NCBI GenBank assembly: GCA_030529855.1
Contig: JAUMWC010000014.1
Span: 1 to 47,502, forward strand
From: Gemella sp.
Lineage (GTDB): Bacteria > Bacillota > Bacilli > Staphylococcales > Gemellaceae
Reading direction: 5' to 3'
DNA length: 47,502 nt
Positions 33,080 through 47,502 of this stretch are shown in pieces. How positions within the stretch are numbered: the first letter of the stretch is position 1; each line of letters starts with the position of its first letter. A model generated the notes under the pieces. The model worked only from the letters and a program-made list of their open reading frames with translations. It did no database searches and was not told the DNA's origin. The translations under genes were made by a program, and so were the position numbers.

Positions 33080-33110
33080 ATGTGATATAATTATTTTAAT
33101 TATATCACAT
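33080..33110. promoter_or_regulatory. AT-rich palindrome at the chromosome/island boundary
   Basis: A perfect 14-bp inverted repeat (ATGTGATATAATTA, 33080-33093, with its complement at 33097-33110, loop TTT). Each arm carries TATAAT, so it gives a -10-like hexamer on both strands (33086-33091 plus, 33099-33104 minus). It could be the trmH promoter region, an operator, or part of the attachment site. Confidence 0.5.
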
Positions 33111-33267: not shown

Positions 33268-33291
33268 AGGGCAAATTGCCCTTTTTTTATA
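33265..33291. terminator. Terminator at the 3' end of the integrase gene
   Basis: AAAAGGGC (33265-33272) with GCCCTTTT (33278-33285), loop AAATT. The T-run is long on the plus side and short on the minus side. It lies just beyond the integrase stop codon. Confidence 0.65.
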
Positions 33292-34423
33292 TGCTCATAT
33301 ATTCAGCAAATTGTATTGCTGTTTGTTGTTTTAATTTTTCTGTTACGTGGTTATAGATATTCATTGTAGTTTTAAAATCTGAATGTCCTAATCTTTTTTG
33401 TACAGCTTGAATACTAGCACCAGCTTCAAACATTAATGAACAATGGGTATGTCTAAAGCCGTGACAACTAATACTCTTAAGATTGAATTTTTTTTGTATT
33501 CGTCTTAATGTTGTGTTTATTGATGTTGAGCTTAAACGTCTATTATTTTTATTAACAAATACATAGTCATTGTTACGTACACCCATTTTAAATAGTAATT
33601 CTCTTTGTGCTATTTTATAAGAGTGTAGTTGTTGCATTGTAAGAGGGTCAACGTCTATGATACGTTTACTACTTTTAGTTTTAGGACTTTGTACTATTTG
33701 TGCATTATTTTCCCCTCTAGACACAGTTTTATTAATACTAATAGTGTTAGCTTTAAAATCAATGTCTTGCCAGTCTAATGCCAGTACCTCTCCAATTCTA
33801 GCCCCAGTAAAGCCTAATAATCTAAATATCATAAATAGAGTAGGCGAGTAATTTTCTTTTATTACTTCAAGAAAATATAATAACTCATCTTTAGTATAAT
33901 ATTTCTCAATTTCCTCTTTATCATCAGTTTCAATTCTAGGCTTTTTTATTTTATCCATAGGGTTACTATTCAGTAAATTAATATTTACAGCATATTCAAA
34001 GACCATATTTAATAATTTTATTAAGTCGTTTAAATAGTTTTTGCTGTATATATTCCCCCAGTCATTTACTATTTTTTGTAATTCTAGCATTGTTATTTTC
34101 TTTATATCGATATTACCGAGAATTGATAATATTGTTTTTGATATTGATAAATAAGAATTAAGTGAACTTTCTTTTATTGTATGTCTATGGTTATCTATCC
34201 AAATATCATATACTGCAGAAAAGGTATGTTTTTTATTGCGAACAAATAAAGAACCTTTTTCAAATTCTATTTTCTGTTTAGCTATGTATATTTCAGCTTC
34301 CTTTTTACTTTCAAACCCACGTTTTGTTTTTCTTACTTCCTTACCAGTAATAGGGTTAATCCCTAGATACAAGTTATTTATCATATATAGTTTTTTATTG
34401 TTTTTAGTATATTGTTTAATCAT
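33287..34423 (-). CDS. int: Tyrosine-type site-specific integrase
   Basis: 378 aa. It catalyses island integration and, with an excisionase, excision. The N-terminus is an AP2-like arm-binding domain (KKLYMINNLYLGINPITGKE), followed by a SAM-like core-binding domain. The catalytic set is complete: Arg209 (GARIGEVLAL), a Lys near 248-250, His321 and Arg324 (CHGFRHTHC), His347 (LGHSDFKTT) and Tyr357 (NIYNHV). It belongs to the Firmicute phage/ICE group. It reads leftward out of the island and is the last gene of that arm. The start follows GAAAGGAA on the minus strand. Confidence 0.93.
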   Translation of the reverse strand: MIKQYTKNNKKLYMINNLYLGINPITGKEVRKTKRGFESKKEAEIYIAKQKIEFEKGSLFVRNKKHTFSAVYDIWIDNHRHTIKESSLNSYLSISKTILSILGNIDIKKITMLELQKIVNDWGNIYSKNYLNDLIKLLNMVFEYAVNINLLNSNPMDKIKKPRIETDDKEEIEKYYTKDELLYFLEVIKENYSPTLFMIFRLLGFTGARIGEVLALDWQDIDFKANTISINKTVSRGENNAQIVQSPKTKSSKRIIDVDPLTMQQLHSYKIAQRELLFKMGVRNNDYVFVNKNNRRLSSTSINTTLRRIQKKFNLKSISCHGFRHTHCSLMFEAGASIQAVQKRLGHSDFKTTMNIYNHVTEKLKQQTAIQFAEYMSI

Positions 34424-34636: not shown

Positions 34637-34770
34637 TTGATTTTTGTTCACACTTATATTATACTAATAATAACAAAGATAACTTGCGAAGGATAAACGT
34701 TGTGTTCCCGAATGGGAGTAAGTCAATGGACGAGAATTCACATATGCCTGGGGTTATCTTATTTTTTTGT
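34637..34770 (+). ncRNA. Predicted small structured RNA convergent with the HEPN gene
   Basis: Promoter: -35 TTGATT (34637-34642), 17-bp spacer, -10 TATACT (34660-34665). The predicted RNA starts near 34,672. A long-range stem AAGATAAC (34676-34683) with GTTATCTT (34753-34760), extended by two G-U pairs, encloses about 69 nt with an inner TCCC-GAAT-GGGA hairpin, and ATTTTTTTG follows directly, as in an intrinsic terminator. The 3' end overlaps the last bases of the DUF3644 gene on the other strand. No protein-coding frame with an RBS is seen. The remainder of the 335-base gap 34,424-34,758 holds the repeat and the hairpin described above. Confidence 0.5.
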
Positions 34771-35739
34771 CTTATTTTTAAGGTTAGTTACAAAATTTAT
34801 AGGATCTTTTTCTATTTCTTCTACAAGAAAATCACAGAAGTTAGAAGAATAGCTATAACGATTACCTAACTTATAATGATAGCAAAATTTATTATTTTTC
34901 TTAATATCATAAAAACTGTTAAATAAGTTCAAGTCATTTGTAGTGAATGGCTTTTTTATTTTGTCTCCTGCTACCACTTTTGTTAATAGTATGTCTTTAG
35001 ATTTTAATTTCTTATTTACTATTTTGATTACTTCTTTAGTGGTATGTGGATAGAGTGCATGAGGGTCTTTTATCTCTCTTAATACATTTACAGTTGCATC
35101 AGCTGAACTATCTACTTTTACTAGCAAGTCGGCTTCCTCTTTACGTTTAGTTATATAAAATCTTGTTTCTACAGGTATTGCATAGTCTGAATTACTAGAG
35201 TGTATCTCTGATTCAATTTTTGCTTTCTCAGATAATAAACGTTCTGCCATTTGTGGAGAATATTTAGCTTTTATTTCCTCGCTATTTAATTGATCTATAC
35301 GAACTGATAAAGTAAGGAAATTTTGGGCGATTTGTTTAGTTATATCTATATTGTGGAATTCTTGCATTTTTAAAATATAGTTAGCAACACATGCTTGGAA
35401 TAATGGAGCATAGATATGTTCATAATCTTCTGTTATGAAGTGGGTACTAGTATTTCTTAACTCAATAATTTGAAGAAGATTTTTTCTTAATGAACCATGT
35501 TTATCAGGGAATATTTTTTCTACTGAATTCTCTAGTGAAATAGTTCTATCACTGTCTTTATAATATATAGAAACACCTTTATTTAGTAATTCAGCTTTCA
35601 GCATTAGTTCCCAAGCGTTACATATAAAGAAACTAAAACCCTCAATTCTATATTTAATTGTTGGTTTATTGTATATTTCTAAACCTAAGATAAAAGCTTC
35701 AATACTTTTATCAACCATTCTTTCTGATAAATTTTCCAT
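34759..35739 (-). CDS. DUF3644 protein with HEPN RNase motif (candidate anti-phage effector)
   Basis: 326 aa. The N-terminal block (KSIEAFILGLEIYNKPTIKY ... FSFFICNAWELMLKAELL) is characteristic of DUF3644. Residues 95-100 read RNTSTH, which fits the HEPN Rx4H active site; HEPN proteins are often RNases that act in toxin-antitoxin or abortive infection systems. A middle coiled coil follows, and the last ~90 residues (YPHTTKEVIKIVNKKL ... FTTNDLNLFNSFY) look like a helical winged-type binding domain. It sits between int and repressor, the usual accessory slot of PICIs. The promoter and a leader terminator lie upstream. An antitoxin is not obvious. The defence role is inference. Confidence 0.8.
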   Translation of the reverse strand: MENLSERMVDKSIEAFILGLEIYNKPTIKYRIEGFSFFICNAWELMLKAELLNKGVSIYYKDSDRTISLENSVEKIFPDKHGSLRKNLLQIIELRNTSTHFITEDYEHIYAPLFQACVANYILKMQEFHNIDITKQIAQNFLTLSVRIDQLNSEEIKAKYSPQMAERLLSEKAKIESEIHSSNSDYAIPVETRFYITKRKEEADLLVKVDSSADATVNVLREIKDPHALYPHTTKEVIKIVNKKLKSKDILLTKVVAGDKIKKPFTTNDLNLFNSFYDIKKNNKFCYHYKLGNRYSYSSNFCDFLVEEIEKDPINFVTNLKNKTKK

Positions 35740-36590: not shown

Positions 36591-37778
36591 TTATTGCATA
36601 AATAAAGATAAGATATATAAGATTATACAAATTATAAATGTCCACCCTAAACATCCAAAGCAGCCGGAAATTTTATTATTTAAATTAACAGGTTGAATTT
36701 TCTGTTCGTGTAGTTCTCGTTCAAAATCATTTTCATCAGTATTGTCAAAGTCGCTATCATCTTCATAGTTGTCTTCATAATCATCTTCATAATCATCCTC
36801 ATCATCTTCATAATCATCTTCATGGTTATCTTCATAATAATCATAATTTGTATAATCTGTTACACGGGGATTATTATTTGATAACGTTCTTTGAAATGCT
36901 TGATTAAATATAGTATCCTTAGTATCTTCATCATTATTCAAATAAGATAAAATTATTTCTTTTATTTCAGTAACGCTAAATATATAGTTCTTTTTGTTTT
37001 TGTACTTTTTACACTCTTCATTAATGGTAGTCAAATAGCTTTCATCATTTGATATTAATTTAGAGAGATTGACTATAAAATGATTTGGAACTTCTGTTTT
37101 ATCCACAAATTGTTCATATTTTGTTTGTTCACTATTGAAATAAGCAATTTCTAGTTCTGTTAAATAGCTATACAGTGCTTTAACGTAATAAGATATTGAT
37201 AATTCAAAATCGTTGTATTTCACGGCAACGTCACCTAATTTCCTATAAGAGTAGCAGTGAACGGATTTTGGAATTTCTTTATTTACTTCTAAAGTAACCT
37301 CTATATATTTACAAATAAGTTCTAAATCAGTTCTTTCAGGGTTATCTAATGCGAATTGATAAAGTGCGTTAGGATGAGAGTATTCTTGAAATAGATTATG
37401 CACATCAATAAGGTATTGAGTATTGTTAACAAGTTCCATTCCTTTTTCTGTAACAAGTTCTACTTTTTTTACATAATTTGAATATGTGTTTAAATCAGCT
37501 TTTTCTATAATTCTTTTTATTAATACGTCTTTGTTTCCACTAACTTTTAATTCGTTCTCTTTTAGAATTTCTTTTAATTGAGCTCCAGTTAATCGACTAA
37601 GTGAACTGGCTTCATCTTCTTTTGTTTCTATCAACTGATTTTTTAATAAATTTTTTATACTTTTTTTAGTATCTACTAAATATCTATCTCTCCAAAATAC
37701 TTGCTCTAAATTAGATGCTTGTGTTTTGTAATTAAGATAATGTAATACCAGTATGTCTATTCCTTTTAAATTATTCAC
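36591..37778 (-). CDS. SAP-domain protein with acidic linker and C-terminal membrane anchor
   Basis: 395 aa. The N-terminal ~55 residues look like a winged helix; a SAP domain follows (~62-96: LTGAQLKEILKENELKVSG, NKDVLIKRI), then VELVTEKGMEL. SAP domains normally bind DNA. The middle (~110-310) is helical and TPR-like in feel. Residues ~318-350 are a run of DDYEDDEDDYEDD-type acidic repeats. The last 18 residues (GWTFIICIILYILSLFMQ) form a membrane anchor. It therefore would tether a DNA-binding head to the membrane, which is unusual. The start is GTG 37778 after AGAGGAT. It is directly downstream of the repressor. Confidence 0.75.
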   Translation of the reverse strand: MNNLKGIDILVLHYLNYKTQASNLEQVFWRDRYLVDTKKSIKNLLKNQLIETKEDEASSLSRLTGAQLKEILKENELKVSGNKDVLIKRIIEKADLNTYSNYVKKVELVTEKGMELVNNTQYLIDVHNLFQEYSHPNALYQFALDNPERTDLELICKYIEVTLEVNKEIPKSVHCYSYRKLGDVAVKYNDFELSISYYVKALYSYLTELEIAYFNSEQTKYEQFVDKTEVPNHFIVNLSKLISNDESYLTTINEECKKYKNKKNYIFSVTEIKEIILSYLNNDEDTKDTIFNQAFQRTLSNNNPRVTDYTNYDYYEDNHEDDYEDDEDDYEDDYEDNYEDDSDFDNTDENDFERELHEQKIQPVNLNNKISGCFGCLGWTFIICIILYILSLFMQ

Positions 37779-37957: not shown

Positions 37958-38611
37958 TTAATCATTATTTATAATATCACTGTCAATATACATTTCACCC
38001 AAAGACTCTAGGATAGAGTTTATTATTTCTTTTTGTTCAGTATTTAGTTCATAACTATCTAGTATATTGCTATAAAAAGTAAGTAATTCAATACCGTGTT
38101 CACTTTTTATAAAATCTAATGACTGTACAAAATTTTCACCTAGTTTTTTCTTATCGTTGGAAATTGCAATTAATATCCTAGATTTTAAGTTTATTTCATT
38201 ATCGGCTATTGCAATTAATTTATCAATATCATTAACTGTAATTTCTTGTTCTTGAAGGTATCTAATCAAATTAAGAATAGTATTCATTATAACAATTCTA
38301 TTTTTTGATTTCTTTATTTCTTCAAGTTCTTCTTTATTTAGATTTTTATATTTATCATCTAATTGAAAATAATTTTCAGATATAAATTCTCCAACGCTAC
38401 CGTAAAGTAATTCATTTACACTCATATCCCCAAGCTTTGCTATTGCTTTTATACGTTCCTTGTTAGGGAGTGAACGACCGTTCTCCCAAAATTGTATATT
38501 ACTTTTTCCGGTATCAAATATCTTTCCGAATTCTTCAAGGGTATAGCCCTTATCTAGTCGTAGTTGCTTAATTCTAAGACCTACATTTTGTTTATTAACT
38601 TGTATTTTCAT
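37958..38611 (-). CDS. XRE-family repressor (CI/Stl-like)
   Basis: 217 aa. The N-terminal HTH (~10-65; GLRIKQLRLDKGYTLEEFGK, IFDTGKSNIQFWENG) is a clear XRE domain. The C-terminal ~150 residues are helical, with no peptidase Ser/Lys pair of LexA-type CI proteins that I can see, so it is unlikely to be cleaved by RecA. In PICIs the Stl repressor is released by helper phage proteins instead; this would fit. It is divergent from the Cro-like gene across a shared control region. Confidence 0.85.
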   Translation of the reverse strand: MKIQVNKQNVGLRIKQLRLDKGYTLEEFGKIFDTGKSNIQFWENGRSLPNKERIKAIAKLGDMSVNELLYGSVGEFISENYFQLDDKYKNLNKEELEEIKKSKNRIVIMNTILNLIRYLQEQEITVNDIDKLIAIADNEINLKSRILIAISNDKKKLGENFVQSLDFIKSEHGIELLTFYSNILDSYELNTEQKEIINSILESLGEMYIDSDIINND

Positions 38612-38770: not shown

Positions 38771-38974
38771 ATGACTATAAATAAATTAGCAGGTTATAGA
38801 GCAAGTGCAGGGATTAAAACAAAAACAATGGCTGAGTTGTTAAATGTTGCCCCGCAGACTTATTTAAAAAAAGAAAAGAAACAAATAATATTTAAAGATA
38901 ATGAAAAAATTAAGGTGTTAGAATTTCTAAAACAATATTTTCCTACTGTAACGTTGGAAGAATTATTTTTTTAA
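38771..38974 (+). CDS. Cro-like HTH protein
   Basis: 67 aa. A small XRE-like protein: TKTMAELLNVAPQTYLKKEK is the HTH and it ends with the typical LEELFF. It is the first rightward gene and presumably counters the repressor. Strong RBS GGAGG 8 bases before the ATG. Confidence 0.8.
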   Translation: MTINKLAGYRASAGIKTKTMAELLNVAPQTYLKKEKKQIIFKDNEKIKVLEFLKQYFPTVTLEELFF

Positions 38975-39856: not shown

Positions 39857-40087
39857 ATGGAGAAGTTAAGAGAATATCAAGCTGTTATTTACAATGTAGG
39901 ACACGCTATAAAACTACTAGAAGTAGGTGTAAGAGAATTAGGGGAGAATGGTGGCTTTAATAAATATGAATGTAAAATCATTGATGGACTAGTAGGAACT
40001 ACAATTTTAGTTAGTGAAAAACTAGAAAAGTTATCAGAAGAAATTGAACAGGAGTTGAGAAACAATGGAAGTAGTATTAAGCAGTAA
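39857..40087 (+). CDS. Island early protein, unknown function (76 aa)
   Basis: 76 aa, helical (VGHAIKLLEVGVRELGENG ... LEKLSEEIEQEL). Not recognised. The last 23 bases overlap the start of the HTH gene. Confidence 0.6.
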   Translation: MEKLREYQAVIYNVGHAIKLLEVGVRELGENGGFNKYECKIIDGLVGTTILVSEKLEKLSEEIEQELRNNGSSIKQ

Positions 40088-40331
40088 TTACCAAGAGAAA
40101 TTAAAAGAAGAATTAAGGGAGCTTATCAGACAGACAGCAAAAGAAGAAGCTGAAAGAATACAACCAGGTAAAAGGTTATATAATGCTACTGAATTAATGC
40201 AGTATCTAGGTTGTGGGCAACAGACCCTAAAAGAATTGCAAATAGCAGGACTTAAAGAAATGAAAGTAGGTAGGCAACGATTATTTGATATTGAAGAAGT
40301 TTATGAAGTGTTAAAAGCAAGAAGAAAATAA
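40065..40331 (+). CDS. AlpA/excisionase-like DNA-binding protein
   Basis: 88 aa. An N-terminal helix (QEKLKEELRELIRQTAKEEAE) is followed by a MerR-like HTH of the HTH_17 type: LYNATELMQYLGCGQQTLKE, GLKEMKVGRQRLFDIEEVYEVL. Such proteins act as excisionases or as AlpA-like activators of integrase genes in satellites. Either role fits here. RBS CAGGAG. It overlaps the previous gene. Confidence 0.75.
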   Translation: MEVVLSSNYQEKLKEELRELIRQTAKEEAERIQPGKRLYNATELMQYLGCGQQTLKELQIAGLKEMKVGRQRLFDIEEVYEVLKARRK

Positions 40332-40832: not shown

Positions 40833-41183
40833 ATGAGTTGCAGAAAATTAGATAATGAACCTAACAAAGATATAAGGTATTTACTTTTTAATATACCTAA
40901 TTTTAGAACTAAATTAGAGCAATTAGAGAGAAATAATAACAGTAAAGAAGAAATAGTCACAGAGATTAAGAGAGAACTCTCAAGGTGGCTTAATATTCTT
41001 AATACTGACGTTGCTGTTGATATTAAAGGAATTAGGGCGAGTATATTTGATTATAGAAAACAAATGTATAAAAGTTCTTACGGACTAGATAAAGTAGGAA
41101 TATTAGATTTAACTAAGGATAGATTGAACTACTGGCAAGGACTAGCACAAATGGTATTAAAAGAAAGAGAGGAGGGTTGCTAA
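40833..41183 (+). CDS. Island protein upstream of the primase, unknown (116 aa)
   Basis: 116 aa, basic/helical (LEQLERNNNSKEEIVTEIKRELSRWL...), no known motif. The start is ATG after AAAGGG. It overlaps the primase gene by one base (TAATG), so it is probably a replication or regulation accessory. Confidence 0.62.
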   Translation: MSCRKLDNEPNKDIRYLLFNIPNFRTKLEQLERNNNSKEEIVTEIKRELSRWLNILNTDVAVDIKGIRASIFDYRKQMYKSSYGLDKVGILDLTKDRLNYWQGLAQMVLKEREEGC

Positions 41184-43684
41184 TGGCAATATATAAACAA
41201 CTAGGGTTTAAAACTAAACAATTAACACTAGTAAAGGGAAATAAACCTTTATTTGAGATGTTACAAGATTATGATGTTGTAGATGATACAACCGACTTAC
41301 AAAAATATAAAGAGCAAACAGCAACATATATTATAGTTGGAGAAATGAAACCAAATGAGCAAGGGCAGTATATAAGAAGTAATGCTAATATTATCAGCCG
41401 TGACTATGCTTTTTTAGATTATGATAAGATAGATATTTCTAATGCTGATTTTATTAATCTAGTAGCCGATAAATTACAAGGATTTGAATACCTTTTATAT
41501 CCAACTATTAGGCATACAGAAGAAAAGCCAAGATATAGGCTAGTATTGCCCCTAGAACGTTCAGCAATTGAACAAGAGTATAAAAGTACTATTCAAAGTA
41601 TAGCTGACTGTATAGGGCTTAAAAATGATAGTTCTAGTGCTACATTTTCACAGTTACAGGGTACACCTGTAGTAAGAAAATCACAAGCTGATAATTATAA
41701 GATTATTCATATCACTGGGGAAAAATACCCAGTGAGTGAAGCTAAAGTTACTAAACGTAGGGAGAAGGTACAGAAAACAGCTAATATTTTAAATTCTAAT
41801 GATTTAAAGAGAATGTTTGAGTTATACCTTGAATTAGATGAGCCTAATTTAATAGATGATTATAATAACGCCTTATCAGTAATTCAAACAATAGTAAAAG
41901 AAGAAATTGCAGGAACTATTGATGTTGTTACAGCATCAGATTTTGTTACTTTACTAGCTTATGATAATGAAGCATATATCAAAGGAAATATTGATAAGTA
42001 CAATGCTGAGAAACAACAAGCAGTAGTTAACCCTAATTATATAAGGACAACCTACACGTTTAAAGATAGATTTAGGGCTTGTATTAGTGGAGTAGTAGAC
42101 AAGAATAAACGGAAAGTTTTTGCCCAGTTATGGAATAAAAACTATACTAATCCAGTAATTGATTTTACAGAAAATAAAAACTATTTTGATATTTTAGAAA
42201 ATAACCCAAATATTAACGTCATAGAGATGTTTCAAGATATAGGTTATAGATGGAGAGAAGAAAATTCTACTATAAGTGAAAAAAATGGAAAACTGTACAT
42301 TCCAGAAATGGATTTTGTTACGGTAACGCAGTTAATAAAACAGCATATTCCTTTTATCAAAGTCGGAGAAACCAAGGACACATCAACTCTTTATTATTAT
42401 GATTTTAAACAAGGGATATATGTTCATAGCATTTCAGAGATAGAAAGTTATATAAATGCTCTAGAATATAGATATAAACCTAGATATTATTCAGAAGTAA
42501 TAAATAAATTAAAAAATGAAAATGAAGTTGAATATGTTGAAGAAATGCCAGAATATTTAAAAAATTATATTCCAGTTAATAATGGCTTGTTTAATGTTAA
42601 TTCCCAAAAATTAGAGCCATTTAGCTATAAACATTATATAACAAGTAAGGAAGCTACAAATTATAATATTGAAGCAGAAAATCCAGTAGAATATTTTGAT
42701 GTAGATAAGTGGTTTAAGGCAATAGCTAATTATGACGATGAAATAGAATTGTTATTGTGGCAATTAGTTAACGAAGCAATCAACGGTAATAACACTCGTG
42801 AAAAAATAGCAATATTATTAGGTAGCGGTAAAAACGGTAAAGGTACTTTTCAAGCAATGTTAAGAAATCTGATAGGTAAAAAGAATGTATCAGCCTTAAA
42901 AATGCATCAGTTTTCTAATAAATTCGATAAAGCTAAATTATTAGGAGCTATATGTAATATAGGCGATGATATAGAAAACTCTTACCTTGACGAAGTGGGA
43001 GATTTGAAAACAATAGCAACAGGAGACCCACTTACAATCGATAGGAAAAATAAAGACCCACTAACTATAATTACAAAAGTTTTATTAATTTTTAGTGCAA
43101 ATGAAATACCAAAGACACGAGATAAAAGCGATGCTTTTTTAAATAGATTATTGATAATTCCTTTTAATGCTGATTTTAATGGCGAAGTACAAGATAAAAG
43201 TATTAAAGAAGAAAAATTAAAAAATCCTAAAGTTTTGGAATATATTTTGAAAAAAGCCATAGAAATGAAATTTGATAAGTTTATAGAACCAAAGGCAGTA
43301 AAAAAAGCACGTGCCGATTATAAAGCTGAAAACGATACGGTTAATGATTATATGAATAACTCTTATATAATTAGAGGTTTTCATAATTTAGATGTGGTAG
43401 CAACAGCATTTATAAATGCAGATTATAAAGCATATTGTGAAAAAGCCTTGAATACAAAACCTAGAGCGAATATAGCTAAGGATTTAGCTAGGAATTTGAA
43501 TTCAGAATTTAAAAAAGACGGGGTCAGTTATTATACAAAAAATGCTAGATATACTAAAGAACATCTAGAACAGTATAGTGATTTTGACAAAGAATATTAT
43601 CACGACGATAAAGAGGGTAACCCTAATTTTAATCACTATTTAAATGATATTCCTTCTATGAAATTAATACGTGAAAAAAGATAA
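41183..43684 (+). CDS. Primase-helicase replication protein (AEP-like plus SF3)
   Basis: 833 aa. The N-terminal ~200 residues resemble an archaeo-eukaryotic primase (ISRDYAFLDYDKID with DxD near 74-84; RHTEEKPRYRLVLPL; GTPVV). An SF3 helicase follows: Walker A GSGKNGKGT (547-555), Walker B IGDDIE (594-598) and motif C LLIFSANEIP (~637-643), with a winged-helix-type C-terminal part. It is the island initiator, acting on the iterons directly behind the gene. I choose ATG 41183 (MAIYKQLGF), inside the TAATG overlap with the preceding gene and after AGGAGGG; an earlier in-frame TTG at 41177 overlaps that RBS. Confidence 0.88.
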   Translation: MAIYKQLGFKTKQLTLVKGNKPLFEMLQDYDVVDDTTDLQKYKEQTATYIIVGEMKPNEQGQYIRSNANIISRDYAFLDYDKIDISNADFINLVADKLQGFEYLLYPTIRHTEEKPRYRLVLPLERSAIEQEYKSTIQSIADCIGLKNDSSSATFSQLQGTPVVRKSQADNYKIIHITGEKYPVSEAKVTKRREKVQKTANILNSNDLKRMFELYLELDEPNLIDDYNNALSVIQTIVKEEIAGTIDVVTASDFVTLLAYDNEAYIKGNIDKYNAEKQQAVVNPNYIRTTYTFKDRFRACISGVVDKNKRKVFAQLWNKNYTNPVIDFTENKNYFDILENNPNINVIEMFQDIGYRWREENSTISEKNGKLYIPEMDFVTVTQLIKQHIPFIKVGETKDTSTLYYYDFKQGIYVHSISEIESYINALEYRYKPRYYSEVINKLKNENEVEYVEEMPEYLKNYIPVNNGLFNVNSQKLEPFSYKHYITSKEATNYNIEAENPVEYFDVDKWFKAIANYDDEIELLLWQLVNEAINGNNTREKIAILLGSGKNGKGTFQAMLRNLIGKKNVSALKMHQFSNKFDKAKLLGAICNIGDDIENSYLDEVGDLKTIATGDPLTIDRKNKDPLTIITKVLLIFSANEIPKTRDKSDAFLNRLLIIPFNADFNGEVQDKSIKEEKLKNPKVLEYILKKAIEMKFDKFIEPKAVKKARADYKAENDTVNDYMNNSYIIRGFHNLDVVATAFINADYKAYCEKALNTKPRANIAKDLARNLNSEFKKDGVSYYTKNARYTKEHLEQYSDFDKEYYHDDKEGNPNFNHYLNDIPSMKLIREKR

Positions 43685-43686
43685 TT

Positions 43687-44007
43687 TTGTAGTAGTGTAG
43701 TAGTAGATGTAGTAATCAATTTTCATAAAGTACTACAAGAGTTATTACAGTAAGATTATGCGTTTAAACACTTTTTGTAGTAGTTGTAGTAGTAAAAATA
43801 ATAAAATTAGCTATATATAAAAATCATAATGTATTTAATTAAGATAAAAATTTATAAATATATAGAGAAATTTTAGAAGTACTACATACTACAACTACTA
43901 CAAAATAAAAGAAATGCAGTAATAACAAGGTTTTTACTGTTGTAGTTTTGATTTTATAAACTACTACAAGTGAATAGTTACTACTACAAATAAAGTTTCT
44001 GTAGTAA
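43687..44007. other. Bipartite replication origin with iterons
   Basis: Left cluster: TTGTAGTAGT-type units at 43687-43696, 43696-43706, 43708-43716, 43775-43784 and 43784-43793. AT-rich core about 43794-43878. Right cluster, in the opposite orientation: ACTACTACAA-type units at 43881-43886 (partial), 43888-43894 (partial), 43894-43903, 43960-43969 and 43980-43989; more partial or reversed copies occur at 43731, 43940 and 44000. SaPI-type origins likewise have iterons on both sides of an AT-rich stretch just 3' of the rep gene. The rest of the 498-base gap (43,685-44,182) holds control elements listed separately. Confidence 0.85.
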
Positions 44008-44062
44008 AAAAAGATTTAGAAATCATTCAAAAAATGCAAACTGCCCTTTTTAAAAATATAAA

Positions 44063-44109: not shown

Positions 44110-44176
44110 AACACCCCTTGCAGAGATGTTGCTAATGTAATGTTGATAATACAATTATACATTAATGAGGGGTGTT
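44110..44176 (+). promoter_or_regulatory. Leader stem that could mask the RBS
   Basis: AACACCCCT (44110-44118) is complementary to AGGGGTGTT (44168-44176), which contains the likely RBS of the gene at 44183. If paired in the mRNA this would hide the RBS. About 49 nt lie between the arms. Confidence 0.5.
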
Positions 44177-44182
44177 TTAACA

Positions 44183-44407
44183 ATGGATTGGCAAGATATA
44201 GATAAACGTCTAGTAGAAAGTATAGATTTAGAATTTTATGAAAAATTAGATCCGATTGAAGAAATAGTATTTGATTTAAAATATATGAAGTTAATGCCAA
44301 CTTATCAAATATCATCAGAAACAAACTATTCAGAAAAAACAATAAGAAGAACAGCTAGTAGTATTCGTTCTAAATATATGGAGTATATCAATGTTAAAGA
44401 AGTATAG
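44183..44407 (+). CDS. Small sigma-like HTH regulator (74 aa)
   Basis: 74 aa (MDWQDIDKRL...). The helices LKYMKLMPTYQISSETNYSE, KTIRRTASSIRSKYMEYI resemble sigma-70 region 4, as in phage ArpU/RinA-type late activators. I choose ATG 44183, because GAGGGGTG is 8-9 bases in front; the in-frame ATG at 44165 lies inside the complementary leader and lacks an RBS. It overlaps the next gene by 17 bases. Confidence 0.7.
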   Translation: MDWQDIDKRLVESIDLEFYEKLDPIEEIVFDLKYMKLMPTYQISSETNYSEKTIRRTASSIRSKYMEYINVKEV

Positions 44408-45059
44408 AGAGATAAAGAGAACATTAGCGAAGCTCCATTATATCCGTGAACAAGATAAAGATTTTATATTATCTCAAGGTGTGTTTAACTATGGACAGAT
44501 AAAAGTGAAATCTAGTTTAAAAAATCATTTTGCCGATAGAGTAGATAAAATAATAGACACTACATTCTTAACACGTGCTAAATTGAAAGAATTAGCCCAT
44601 TTTAAGAGTGATTTAGAAGAACGGCTAACAAATTACCACAATGAAACATTTAAAGCTATAATAAGGCTCTATGTGTTTGATAATTTGAATATAAATAAAA
44701 TTGCTAAAAGATATAGGCTTAAATATCATACAGTAAACAATATAATTGATTTAGGACTAAAGCAGATATATAATCCGACAATACACAGAGATGAAGCAGA
44801 ATATGAGTCAGAGTTGGATATATTACTTTATAGCAGTACTCTAGATGATGATATTATCCAACAAGTAGAAAGCTATATAAACAAGCTAAATAAGTATGAT
44901 TATAATTGTTTGATTAATTGCTATAGGGATATGGCTTTGACAGTTCAAGAAGTGGCTACAATACATAATAAAAAGATATGGAACGTAGCTTTAAACATTG
45001 AGAGAATGAAAGATGAGTTAATACAATTAGTGCCAGTAGAAAAGAGATGTATATTCTAG
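44391..45059 (+). CDS. Sigma-like HTH regulator (222 aa)
   Basis: 222 aa. Two HTH-like regions: AIIRLYVFDNLNINKIAKRY, RLKYHTVNNIIDLGLKQI (~90-125), and LINCYRDMALTVQEVATIHNKKIWNVALNIERMKDEL (~170-210), as in sigma region 4. Position just before the terminase genes suggests that it activates packaging genes. Not assigned to a family with certainty. Confidence 0.68.
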   Translation: MLKKYREIKRTLAKLHYIREQDKDFILSQGVFNYGQIKVKSSLKNHFADRVDKIIDTTFLTRAKLKELAHFKSDLEERLTNYHNETFKAIIRLYVFDNLNINKIAKRYRLKYHTVNNIIDLGLKQIYNPTIHRDEAEYESELDILLYSSTLDDDIIQQVESYINKLNKYDYNCLINCYRDMALTVQEVATIHNKKIWNVALNIERMKDELIQLVPVEKRCIF

Positions 45060-45145
45060 TTAAAGTTTAAGGGAAATATTGTAAAATAGTTAGAGGTTAG
45101 CAAATAAATTTTATAGAGGATATTAAAAGAAGGGAGGTAATTAAA

Positions 45146-45646
45146 ATAAAACCATTAACATTAAAACAGAAACGTTTTGCAGATGAATATATAATAACAG
45201 GGAATGCTTATAAATCAGCAGTAAAAGCAGGATATAGTGAAAAATATGCTAAATCGGATTCTTCAAAATTACTGGAAAATACAGGAATAAAAATATATAT
45301 AGATAACAGGCTAGAAAAACTCCAAAAAACAACCATAGCAACACAAGAAGAAGTTCTTGAAAAATTAACAAGTATACTAAGGCAAGAAAGTATAGAGAAT
45401 GTTAAACAAATTAATCCGATAACAGGGCAAGTAATAGAGTATGAGAAAAAACCTAGTATATCGGATGTGTTGAATGCAGGTAAAGAATTATTAAAAAGAT
45501 ATTCAACTATCCCAGTAGATTTACAAATTGAAAAGTATAAAGCAGAAGTAGAGAAAATTAAACAACAAACGTCAGTAGATGATGAACAAGATTCTAAAAT
45601 TGCAGATTTTGCAAAAGCATTAAGGGAAAGATTTGCTAAAAAATAG
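45146..45646 (+). CDS. terS: Terminase small subunit with AUA start (TerS 1)
   Basis: 166 aa, complete and uninterrupted, but absent from standard ORF calls because it has no ATG, GTG or TTG start. The N-terminus KPLTLKQKRFADEYIITGN, AYKSAVKAGYSEKYAKSDSS matches the Terminase_2 HTH of phage small terminases, followed by a helical oligomerisation part and a short C-terminus. RBS AGGGAGG (45131-45137) is 8 bases before ATA (45146); the frame is open back to a TAG at 45098. The first standard start codon downstream would be near 45,467, far inside the domain. TerS recognises pac/cos DNA and directs packaging. Whether AUA works here is not known. Confidence 0.75.
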   Translation: MKPLTLKQKRFADEYIITGNAYKSAVKAGYSEKYAKSDSSKLLENTGIKIYIDNRLEKLQKTTIATQEEVLEKLTSILRQESIENVKQINPITGQVIEYEKKPSISDVLNAGKELLKRYSTIPVDLQIEKYKAEVEKIKQQTSVDDEQDSKIADFAKALRERFAKK

Positions 45647-45704
45647 ACAAGTATAGACAATTTTTTTAGATTTTATATAATATAAGTGAAAGGGGTGGCT
45701 ATAT

Positions 45705-46229
45705 ATGACAAAAGAGGATAAACTAATAAAAGAAATATCAAGTTATGCTTTAGATTTAATGAGTAATTGGAAACCAGCAAGGAACAGACAAAAAGCCTTT
45801 ATATTGGAGTATGTAGCCAACAATTTCACTAATGCCTCAAGGTGTGCTGTAAAAGCTGGATTTAGTGAGAAAAACGCTAGGAAAGTAGCCAGTAATATGT
45901 TAAACGGTGTAGGCAAATATCAGCATATATCACCAGTTATATATAAAATAGAGCAAGAATTTGATAAACGTAGTGCAGAGTTATCGGTAGCAAGTGCTAT
46001 AGAAATAAAGCAATTTTTAACGGCTGTAATGCGTGGAGAAATAAACGATATTAAATTAATAAATACTGGAGCAGGTAGACAAGAAGTAATACAAATACCA
46101 GCAGATTTATTAACTAGATTAGTAGCTTCTGATAAATTAGCAAAGGCTCTCGGAATGTATACTAAAAATGTTAATGCTGTAGTAGGTGGAGATATTGTCT
46201 TTGAGTTTGGAGAATGGGAAGAGGAGTAA
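45705..46229 (+). CDS. Second terminase small subunit-like protein (TerS 2)
   Basis: 174 aa. The N-terminal half, NRQKAFILEYVANNFTNASR, CAVKAGFSEKNARKVASNML, is a Terminase_2 HTH and aligns with TerS 1 (KRFADEY..., AVKAGYSEKYAK). The C-terminal half (EIKQFLTAVMRGEINDI, PADLLTRLVASDKLAKALGMY) is more like Terminase_2 members of lactococcal and streptococcal phages than TerS 1. It starts 58 bases after TerS 1. No large terminase follows. A broken copy of its 3' end lies at 46470-46520. Confidence 0.8.
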   Translation: MTKEDKLIKEISSYALDLMSNWKPARNRQKAFILEYVANNFTNASRCAVKAGFSEKNARKVASNMLNGVGKYQHISPVIYKIEQEFDKRSAELSVASAIEIKQFLTAVMRGEINDIKLINTGAGRQEVIQIPADLLTRLVASDKLAKALGMYTKNVNAVVGGDIVFEFGEWEEE

Positions 46230-46233
46230 TATT

Positions 46234-46458
46234 ATGAATGATAAATTAGAACTTAAAATATTAGAAGAATTTAACAAAGCTGTAGAAGAATATTTAAAAG
46301 TATTTGGTGATGATTCATTAGATAACGTAATAGAATTACCACACCCAATAACGTCAAGTCTAGAAAATTATGAAGATAGTACAAAAGAGTTATATCAAAG
46401 AATAGAAAATAATAAACCTTTTGACAACACTCCAACAGAAATAGATTTTATTTATTAA
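46234..46458 (+). CDS. Small acidic island protein, paralog of the gene at 46865 (74 aa)
   Basis: 74 aa (MNDKLELKILEEFNKAVEEYL...). EFNKAVEEYLKVFGDDSLDNV is nearly the same as a stretch in the 73-aa protein at 46865 (EFNSKYNEYINKFGDNSLEYV). The start is ATG 46234, 4 bases after the TerS 2 stop, with RBS AGAGGAG. An in-frame ATG at 46186, inside TerS 2, is unlikely. Function unknown. Confidence 0.68.
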   Translation: MNDKLELKILEEFNKAVEEYLKVFGDDSLDNVIELPHPITSSLENYEDSTKELYQRIENNKPFDNTPTEIDFIY

Positions 46459-46469
46459 ATGTTATTTCT

Positions 46470-46520
46470 GTTGTCAATGCAGTAGATAGGTGGATATTAG
46501 GAGAATGGGAAGATGATTGA
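46470..46520 (+). pseudogene. Remnant of a duplicated TerS 2 3' end
   Basis: Reads VVNAVDRWILGEWEDD and stop. The end of TerS 2 reads NVNAVVGGDIVFEFGEWEEE and stop, with shared nucleotides over most of the stretch (GTAGATAGGTGGATATT and GGAGAATGGGAAGA). It has lost a few codons and has no start. Confidence 0.65.
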
Positions 46521-46818
46521 AAAACTAGAAAAGTTAAAAATTAGATATTTAAATACAGAGCACTCTTATTGGAAGCAAGAAGACTGGATTAAGAAAGTAC
46601 ATAGCATTTTTACAGATATGCATTATAGAAAAGATATGACTTTAGAAGAACAGTATATATTTGAAGCCGAGTATTGTTTATTAACTCCAAACATTAGAGA
46701 AAGATACCGTGAGAAAATTAGCTTATCAGACGAGGAATTAAGAGTATTAATTTCTAAGAGAGTAAAAACAGCGAAAGAAAACACAAAAAAAACTTTAAAA
46801 TGGTATAACAATGTATAA
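46513..46818 (+). CDS. Island protein, unknown function (101 aa)
   Basis: 101 aa, helical, basic C-terminus (KRVKTAKENTKKTLKWY). Contains TEHSYWKQEDWIKKVH and EEQYIFEAEYCLLTPNIRERY. Not recognised. It starts inside the TerS 2 remnant, using its AGGAGAATGGGAAG as RBS, so the duplication supplied the translation signal. Confidence 0.6.
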   Translation: MIEKLEKLKIRYLNTEHSYWKQEDWIKKVHSIFTDMHYRKDMTLEEQYIFEAEYCLLTPNIRERYREKISLSDEELRVLISKRVKTAKENTKKTLKWYNNV

Positions 46819-46864: not shown

Positions 46865-47086
46865 ATGGAAAAACTAGAAAAAGAATTTAATAGCAAATAT
46901 AACGAGTATATCAATAAGTTTGGTGATAATTCTTTAGAATACGTTAATTTTTATTGGTATTCACACTATGGTATAGATGAATATACCGAGCATTTAATAA
47001 TTAAAGATATTGAAATGTTGGATAATGCTTTAAAGAAAAATAAGGCATTAAATAACGTTAAGCCTATAGAGGGAATAATAAACTAG
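46865..47086 (+). CDS. Small acidic island protein, paralog of the gene at 46234 (73 aa)
   Basis: 73 aa (MEKLEKEFNSKYNEYINKFGD...). It shares the EFN...EY..FGD.SL..V core with the 74-aa gene, and both end with a KPI/TEI-like tail. I choose ATG 46865 after AGGGAG; the upstream in-frame TTG at 46847 has no RBS. Function unknown. Confidence 0.65.
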   Translation: MEKLEKEFNSKYNEYINKFGDNSLEYVNFYWYSHYGIDEYTEHLIIKDIEMLDNALKKNKALNNVKPIEGIIN

Positions 47087-47104: not shown

Positions 47105-47437
47105 ATGAAAGATAATAAAATATATTCGTGGAAATTAAATAGTATAGAAGGTATCACGGAGGATAGAAACTTTGCGTTAATAACTTTTAAAAATGGACTT
47201 TGTGCTGTTGTAAACTTTGAGTTAAATGGCTTTATGGTTGAAGTATTATTAGAAACATTTTATAAATGGATGCATTTTCCAAATGAAGCTACAGAAAAAG
47301 AAAAAGAAACTATTAAAAATATCTTATCAAATCCAACGGGTTATGAAATTAGTAGTTCAGCAAGAAATTATTTAGAATATCCTGACTCTAAAGATGAATG
47401 GGATAAGATAAAGAAAGATTTTGGTTATACTTATTAA
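47105..47437 (+). CDS. Island protein, unknown function (110 aa)
   Basis: 110 aa. The N-terminal half has a beta pattern (IYSWKLNSIEGITEDRNFALITFKNGLCAVV), the C-terminal half is helical and charged (EATEKEKETIKNILSN, SKDEWDKIKKDFGY). Not recognised. RBS AAAGGTAG. It is the last island gene before the IS end. Confidence 0.6.
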   Translation: MKDNKIYSWKLNSIEGITEDRNFALITFKNGLCAVVNFELNGFMVEVLLETFYKWMHFPNEATEKEKETIKNILSNPTGYEISSSARNYLEYPDSKDEWDKIKKDFGYTY

Positions 47438-47449
47438 ACACTTAACATT

Positions 47450-47502
47450 TGTACTGCGCCCAAAAAGTTGGACAGTATTTAACTAAAGGATTTAGTTCTG
47501 AA
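47450..47502. mobile_element. Left end of an IS3-family (IS150-like) insertion sequence (partial)
   Basis: The stretch begins TGTACTGCGCCCAAAAAG and continues TTGGACAGT, a terminal repeat very like those of IS150-group elements, with TG at the outer end. A leader-type palindrome AACTAAA-GGA-TTTAGTT (47481-47497) follows. The transposase would lie outside the window. Confidence 0.65.

Follow-up and report, generated by a model that had tools for sequence, protein, structure and literature searches.

Two small terminases of different phage ancestry, side by side in a Gemella PICI-type satellite, as a possible snapshot of helper switching

The layout and definition of Gram-positive PICIs have been described (PMC6092414), and in the pac-type SaPIs the small terminase subunit (TerS) of the island is known to interact with the large subunit (TerL) of the phage and to direct the packaging of island DNA (PMC5052747). 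Mutants in terS transfer poorly (PMC10530653). The packaging type of an island can also change; in SaPIbov4 and SaPIbov5, only the 3′ part of terS was kept when it did (PMC5052747). By what route a satellite passes from one helper phage to another is an open question. Here we describe a satellite that carries two TerS genes, TerS1 and TerS2, in a stretch of 47,502 nucleotides from Gemella sp. (hereafter, the window). The literature searched, which consisted largely of papers outside subscription, contains no description of a satellite with two TerS.

The element in the window is organized as a PICI. The genes of the integrase and of the master repressor run leftward, and from a divergent regulator onward the genes run rightward through the primase/rep module, with a predicted replication origin of iteron-like direct and inverted repeats beside it. 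The tyrosine integrase (33287-34423, minus strand; PF00589, 103.8 bits) is about 41% identical to integrases of streptococcal phages and satellites. The next ORF (34759-35739, minus strand) combines DUF3644 with an EC042_2821 endonuclease-like domain and strongly matches the candidate defence system PDC-S19 in PADLOC; judging from these matches, the satellite probably carries anti-phage cargo. An accessory SAP-domain protein (36591-37778, minus strand) precedes an Stl-like HTH repressor (37958-38611, minus strand; PF01381), which is positioned left of the small divergent regulator (38771-38974, plus strand), the latter having a 42% relative in a PICI of another genome, G105. The plus strand then encodes small early genes, among them that of an excisionase-like HTH_17 protein (40065-40331), whose match to PF12728 is weak and below the cut-off, and a fused primase-helicase (DUF5906/D5_N; 41177-43684), whose nearest database relatives belong to streptococcal satellite phages and for which no relatives were found in IMG/VR. 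Directly after the primase, at 43684-44010, TGTAGTAGT-type iteron-like repeats in both orientations surround an AT-rich stretch, and their position makes them a probable replication origin. Weak matches point to a sigma70-region-4-like/phrog_36 regulator (44165-44407, plus strand) and to a phrog_36-like regulator of 222 aa (44391-45059, plus strand); the latter, which stands before TerS1, provided no useful relatives as a marker of sister islands.

The two TerS genes follow on the plus strand, TerS1 at 45146-45646 and TerS2 at 45705-46229, and after them four small accessory ORFs of no known function (46234-46458, 46513-46818, 46865-47086 and 47105-47437, plus strand). Two of these, at 46234-46458 and 46865-47086, both match phrog_8665 weakly and may be paralogous. 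Pfam and PHROG scans of most ORFs, and of the whole right end to attR, revealed no phage structural or lytic genes, and no known helper-interference genes were recognised in the element. From att to att, the element measures approximately 17.0 kb without its insertion sequence (IS), by arithmetic from both ends, and has a 25-bp core at both ends; we count this size within the class of about 15 kb between att sites. Taken together, these features leave us highly confident that this is a PICI-type satellite with two real TerS, in agreement with the first-pass annotation, which had taken it for a SaPI-like satellite.

The window comprises the whole of its contig (C29), which terminates inside an IS. 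On its left, the element is delimited by the integrase and by the insertion site, which lies between a gene for a TrmH-type methylase and, in relatives, a rhodanese-like gene; the attL core, TGATATAATTATTTTAATTATATCA, is found at 33083-33107. A search for the rhodanese-like gene in the same genome led to a separate contig, C14, with approximately 2.75 kb more DNA up to an IS end at the contig end. This contig (locus L111) thus carries the other end of the IS and the right end of the element, including the same 25 bp at attR (L111 2936-2960). In the window, the IS starts at 47450 and runs to the contig end at 47502. It is preceded there by AAACACTTAACATT, and on C14 its opposite end is followed by CATTTTGTTAGGTGTTTTTATT. 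Comparison of these flanks places the left arm of a terminator and a CATT at the IS junction (47436-47449, plus strand), and the CATT common to both flanks reads as a 4-bp target duplication. When the flanks are rejoined they form a perfect hairpin with a 12-bp stem, followed by a run of T; that is, the IS sits in the loop of the terminator behind the last gene (47105-47437). Because the flanks share CATT and rejoin as a hairpin, one simple IS insertion explains the gap, and nothing else need be missing.

The roughly 2.7 kb of C14 that lead from the IS to attR contain about 1 kb without coding sequence, a toxin-antitoxin pair of the DUF6290/ParE type (L111 4036-4589, minus strand) and, at the island's right end, a DUF3800 gene (L111 3142-3964, minus strand) preceded by a DUF3800-I RNA (Rfam RF02969, 91.7 bits). 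The stretch of about 1 kb without clear genes (L111 4590-5614) includes three direct repeats of 34 nt as well as GAAGCGGA words that recur in both orientations, and it could be home to a packaging site or an RNA. That no TerL, portal or capsid genes come after the two TerS had been claimed from a window in which this is invisible, since it ends in the IS; the claim nevertheless holds, as a scan of the distal 2.7 kb up to attR detected none of the three. A TerL beyond the IS is ruled out by the DNA up to attR and by the IS flanks. Searches across the assembled genome found no Terminase_3 TerL and nothing related to the TerL of either of the two nearest annotated phages; phrog_2, an unnamed profile that matches most controls, was not relied on as a TerL probe. 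Given that its own genome is without a Terminase_3 TerL, a helper of this kind would need to arrive from elsewhere.

The presence of two different TerS in tandem at 45146-46229 was likewise confirmed. Both proteins exceed the curated cut-off of PF03592 (Terminase_2; 26.1 bits), TerS1 with 101.9 bits and TerS2 with 39.1 bits, and the two share 33% identity over about 100 aa, as members of separate families. Both also match phrog_51 ('terminase small subunit') and, in a search of solved structures, the TerS of SF6 (SPP1-like). AlphaFold2 models of the two (pLDDT 79-81) have the same order of parts, namely HTH helices, a long helix, a helix, a beta hairpin, a helix and a loose tail, and the comparison with known TerS structures proposed in the first-pass annotation gave the SF6-type protein 3zqq (G1P) as the top Foldseek match for both models. 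The predicted fold of each therefore includes an HTH DNA-binding domain and an oligomerisation core with a beta hairpin. Neither TerS has an adjacent cognate TerL of the kind seen in phages, as is expected for the TerS of a satellite. Profiles and predicted folds thus identify both as real small terminases. The possibility that one of the two is not a terminase is ruled out by the PF03592, phrog_51 and structure matches; in sum, neither a TerL or capsid gene beyond the IS nor a non-terminase in the tandem was found.

Prophages of the genus were searched for matching TerS, as had been suggested, and each of the two has a counterpart. The nearest relative of TerS1 is the prophage TerS of genome G001, with 59% identity, and the full-length relatives of TerS2 include the prophage TerS of genome G003 (49%) and the IMG/VR locus L121 (53%); a single-query search of IMG/VR for TerS2 relatives returned none. 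Both genomes belong to the genus of the host but to two other species, and in both prophages TerS stands directly before TerL, which is followed by portal-size genes. In a maximum-likelihood tree, the two TerS families split at 100/100, with TerS1 as sister to G001 (98/95) and TerS2 grouped with G003 and L121 (93/95). The prophages of G001 and G003 each have a Terminase_3 TerL, and the two are only about 25% identical over their first half; between the annotated phages Javan226 and Javan249, TerL identity is 20%. Because the two TerS have separate tree positions and the TerLs are dissimilar, we conclude that the satellite very probably tapped two phage packaging lineages as sources of its TerS, with no gene duplication. 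Duplication of one TerS is ruled out by the tree.

Identities were also compared part by part, as a test for divergence in which the DNA-binding part differs and the TerL-binding part is kept. TerS1 is 62% identical to the G001 protein in the HTH, 69% in the core and 30% in the tail. The HTH of TerS2 is 54-58% identical to the group of G003 and Javan249 and 33% to Javan85, while its core is 69% identical to Javan85 and 50-53% to the G003/Javan249 group. TerS2 thus looks mosaic in these alignments, which makes the exchange of TerS by recombination plausible here. A separate observation concerns the G003 prophage itself (L092 17695-19489; L093, G003:C1 about 562700-584000), which contains several near-identical repeats of a block of head genes, each encoding a fusion of a Mu-F-like head protein with an ADP-ribosyltransferase domain, then an ORF of about 139 aa and scaffold/capsid-like genes; these repeats look like an array of the polymorphic-toxin type inside a phage head module.

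TerS2 begins with an ATG and has a ribosome-binding site. In TerS1, the position of the relatives' ATG is occupied by ATA (45146-45148), seven bases after the ribosome-binding site GGGAGGT (45132-45138), and the protein can be aligned from this first codon. From a stop at 45098 until 45467, the TerS1 frame contains no ATG, GTG or TTG; that is, TerS1 lacks a canonical start after its ribosome-binding site. The remainder of the gene is intact, with an open frame, all domains, a well-placed ribosome-binding site and no other lesion. The ATA is either a weak but real AUA start, a recent silencing or a one-base assembly error. The gap before TerS2 includes the best-scoring promoter-like site of the region (TAGACA-16-TATAAT, 11/12; 45654-45681, plus strand). 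A promoter of its own for TerS2 was nevertheless not upheld, since promoter-like sites in this region are not above chance.

To assess how rare such pairs are, PF03592 was searched at three levels, in the order (157 genomes), the class (398) and a single genus within that class, probably Streptococcus (284), amounting to roughly 770 different genomes, some of them common to several searches. Adjacent separate PF03592 genes occur at only two places among these genomes, this island and G105:C16, a count that covers PF03592 and would miss pairs of other TerS families; a few other neighbouring PF03592 rows look like fragments of one broken gene. In collections that under-represent satellites, about 100 loci from viruses or phages have a gene resembling TerS1 or TerS2; all of these loci have a TerL and none has two TerS. 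The PICI that holds the G105:C16 pair (L096) has no TerL, its integrase is related to that of this island, and its two TerS are sisters in the tree. The upstream copy (L096 9463-9702, minus strand) is HTH only, about 80 aa ending in a TAG stop, and lies directly before the intact TerS.

We propose that the tandem is a snapshot of helper switching by turnover of TerS. A PICI of this type would package itself by lending its own TerS to the TerL of a helper phage. TerS genes would have been captured from two phage lineages of the host genus, on separate occasions, and kept side by side. TerS2, which is intact and has an ATG and its own ribosome-binding site, would be today's working adaptor, for helpers of the kind represented by the G003 prophage and Javan249; TerS1, of the kind found in the G001 prophage and Javan226, would be the leftover of a former helper, its ATG now ATA and its product made weakly or not at all. 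By analogy with the SaPIs, we infer a TerS-TerL hand-over by TerS2, and by TerS1 if it is made; which TerS is active at present, and in what order the two were acquired, is likewise inferred. We give turnover, rather than stable dual use, about an even chance. Four things put it ahead of a stable design for two helpers: TerS1 starts with ATA, the upstream copy in G105 is damaged, pairs are rare, and SaPIbov4/5 set a precedent for the loss of terS when the packaging type changes. Against it, TerS1 has no further lesion, and its ATA could stem from a mistake in the assembly or act as a real, if weak, start; moreover, only two pairs are known, one of them sister copies from a duplication, so that the pattern rests on little.

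If both TerS were instead made, each would recognise a packaging site on the island and engage the TerL of its own lineage, and the satellite could leave with either helper. Neither protein is shortened or lacks a domain, and prophages of the genus contain a close counterpart of each, accompanied by its own TerL; the two TerLs differ so much that one TerS might not serve both, and TerS1 has an intact frame and a well-placed ribosome-binding site. However, TerS1 is without a canonical start, and pairs are nearly absent elsewhere, although dual use should benefit many satellites. Two active TerS for two helper classes with very different TerLs, one TerS being kept low by an AUA start, is a tentative reading, which we think possible but less likely than turnover. 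The earlier idea that the pair redirects two kinds of helper machinery thus stands as to origin, in that the TerS cluster with two phage lineages of very different TerLs; as to present dual use, it is weakened by the TerS1 start and the truncated upstream G105 copy. It had been proposed, too, that one TerS is a decoy; TerS1, or its HTH part, would then occupy the pac site of the helper or poison mixed TerS rings while the other TerS packages the island. SaPIs do attack helper packaging via TerS, Ppi being a protein that binds phage TerS (PMC5052747), and the G105 pair includes an HTH-only copy. Here, though, neither TerS is shortened or has lost a domain, HTH, oligomerisation core and tail being kept in both, and the start codon of TerS1 argues against strong expression; a decoy role is possible but improbable. 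Finally, recombination between IS copies can delete DNA, and as the window ends inside an IS, the element might be a decayed prophage in which the IS replaced or hides TerL and head genes. We consider this very improbable: the IS flanks rejoin through their common CATT to a perfect terminator hairpin, for which a single insertion suffices; attR follows about 2.7 kb on, with only the toxin-antitoxin pair, DUF3800 and non-coding DNA between; the expected kinds of TerL are absent from the genome; and the primase is of the satellite type. Since prophages of the same genus offer a close counterpart of each TerS, together with its TerL, the choice of helper can be tested gene by gene. If both TerS work, the satellite is built for two helpers; if only one does, helper switching, as we propose with turnover, has been caught in the act.

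Compared with the pac-type SaPIs and Gram-positive PICIs, for example SaPIbov1, the island has in common an integrase, a divergent repressor, a primase, an origin and its own TerS, as well as the absence of TerL and structural genes, a size in the class of about 15 kb and cargo at the ends. Published examples have at most one TerS, whereas this island has two, from different phage lineages, and none of the SaPI genes cpmAB, ppi and ptiABM was recognised in it. The closest relatives of its primase are those of the streptococcal satellite phages Javan98, Javan409 and Javan475, which have the same gene order from integrase to primase; the integrase is about 41% identical to others of this group. 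The three records, in contrast, have no annotated TerS, and their primase region consists of two CDSs rather than the one ORF seen here. The G105:C16 PICI (L096), from the same order, is alike in its two adjacent terS, its lack of a TerL and its related integrase and regulators; unlike those of this island, its copies are sisters that arose by duplication, the upstream one ending after the HTH. The cos SaPIs SaPIbov4 and SaPIbov5, lastly, resemble this island in having exchanged their packaging module and kept a remnant of an older terS, but they went from TerS to a cos site, whereas here a second TerS was added.
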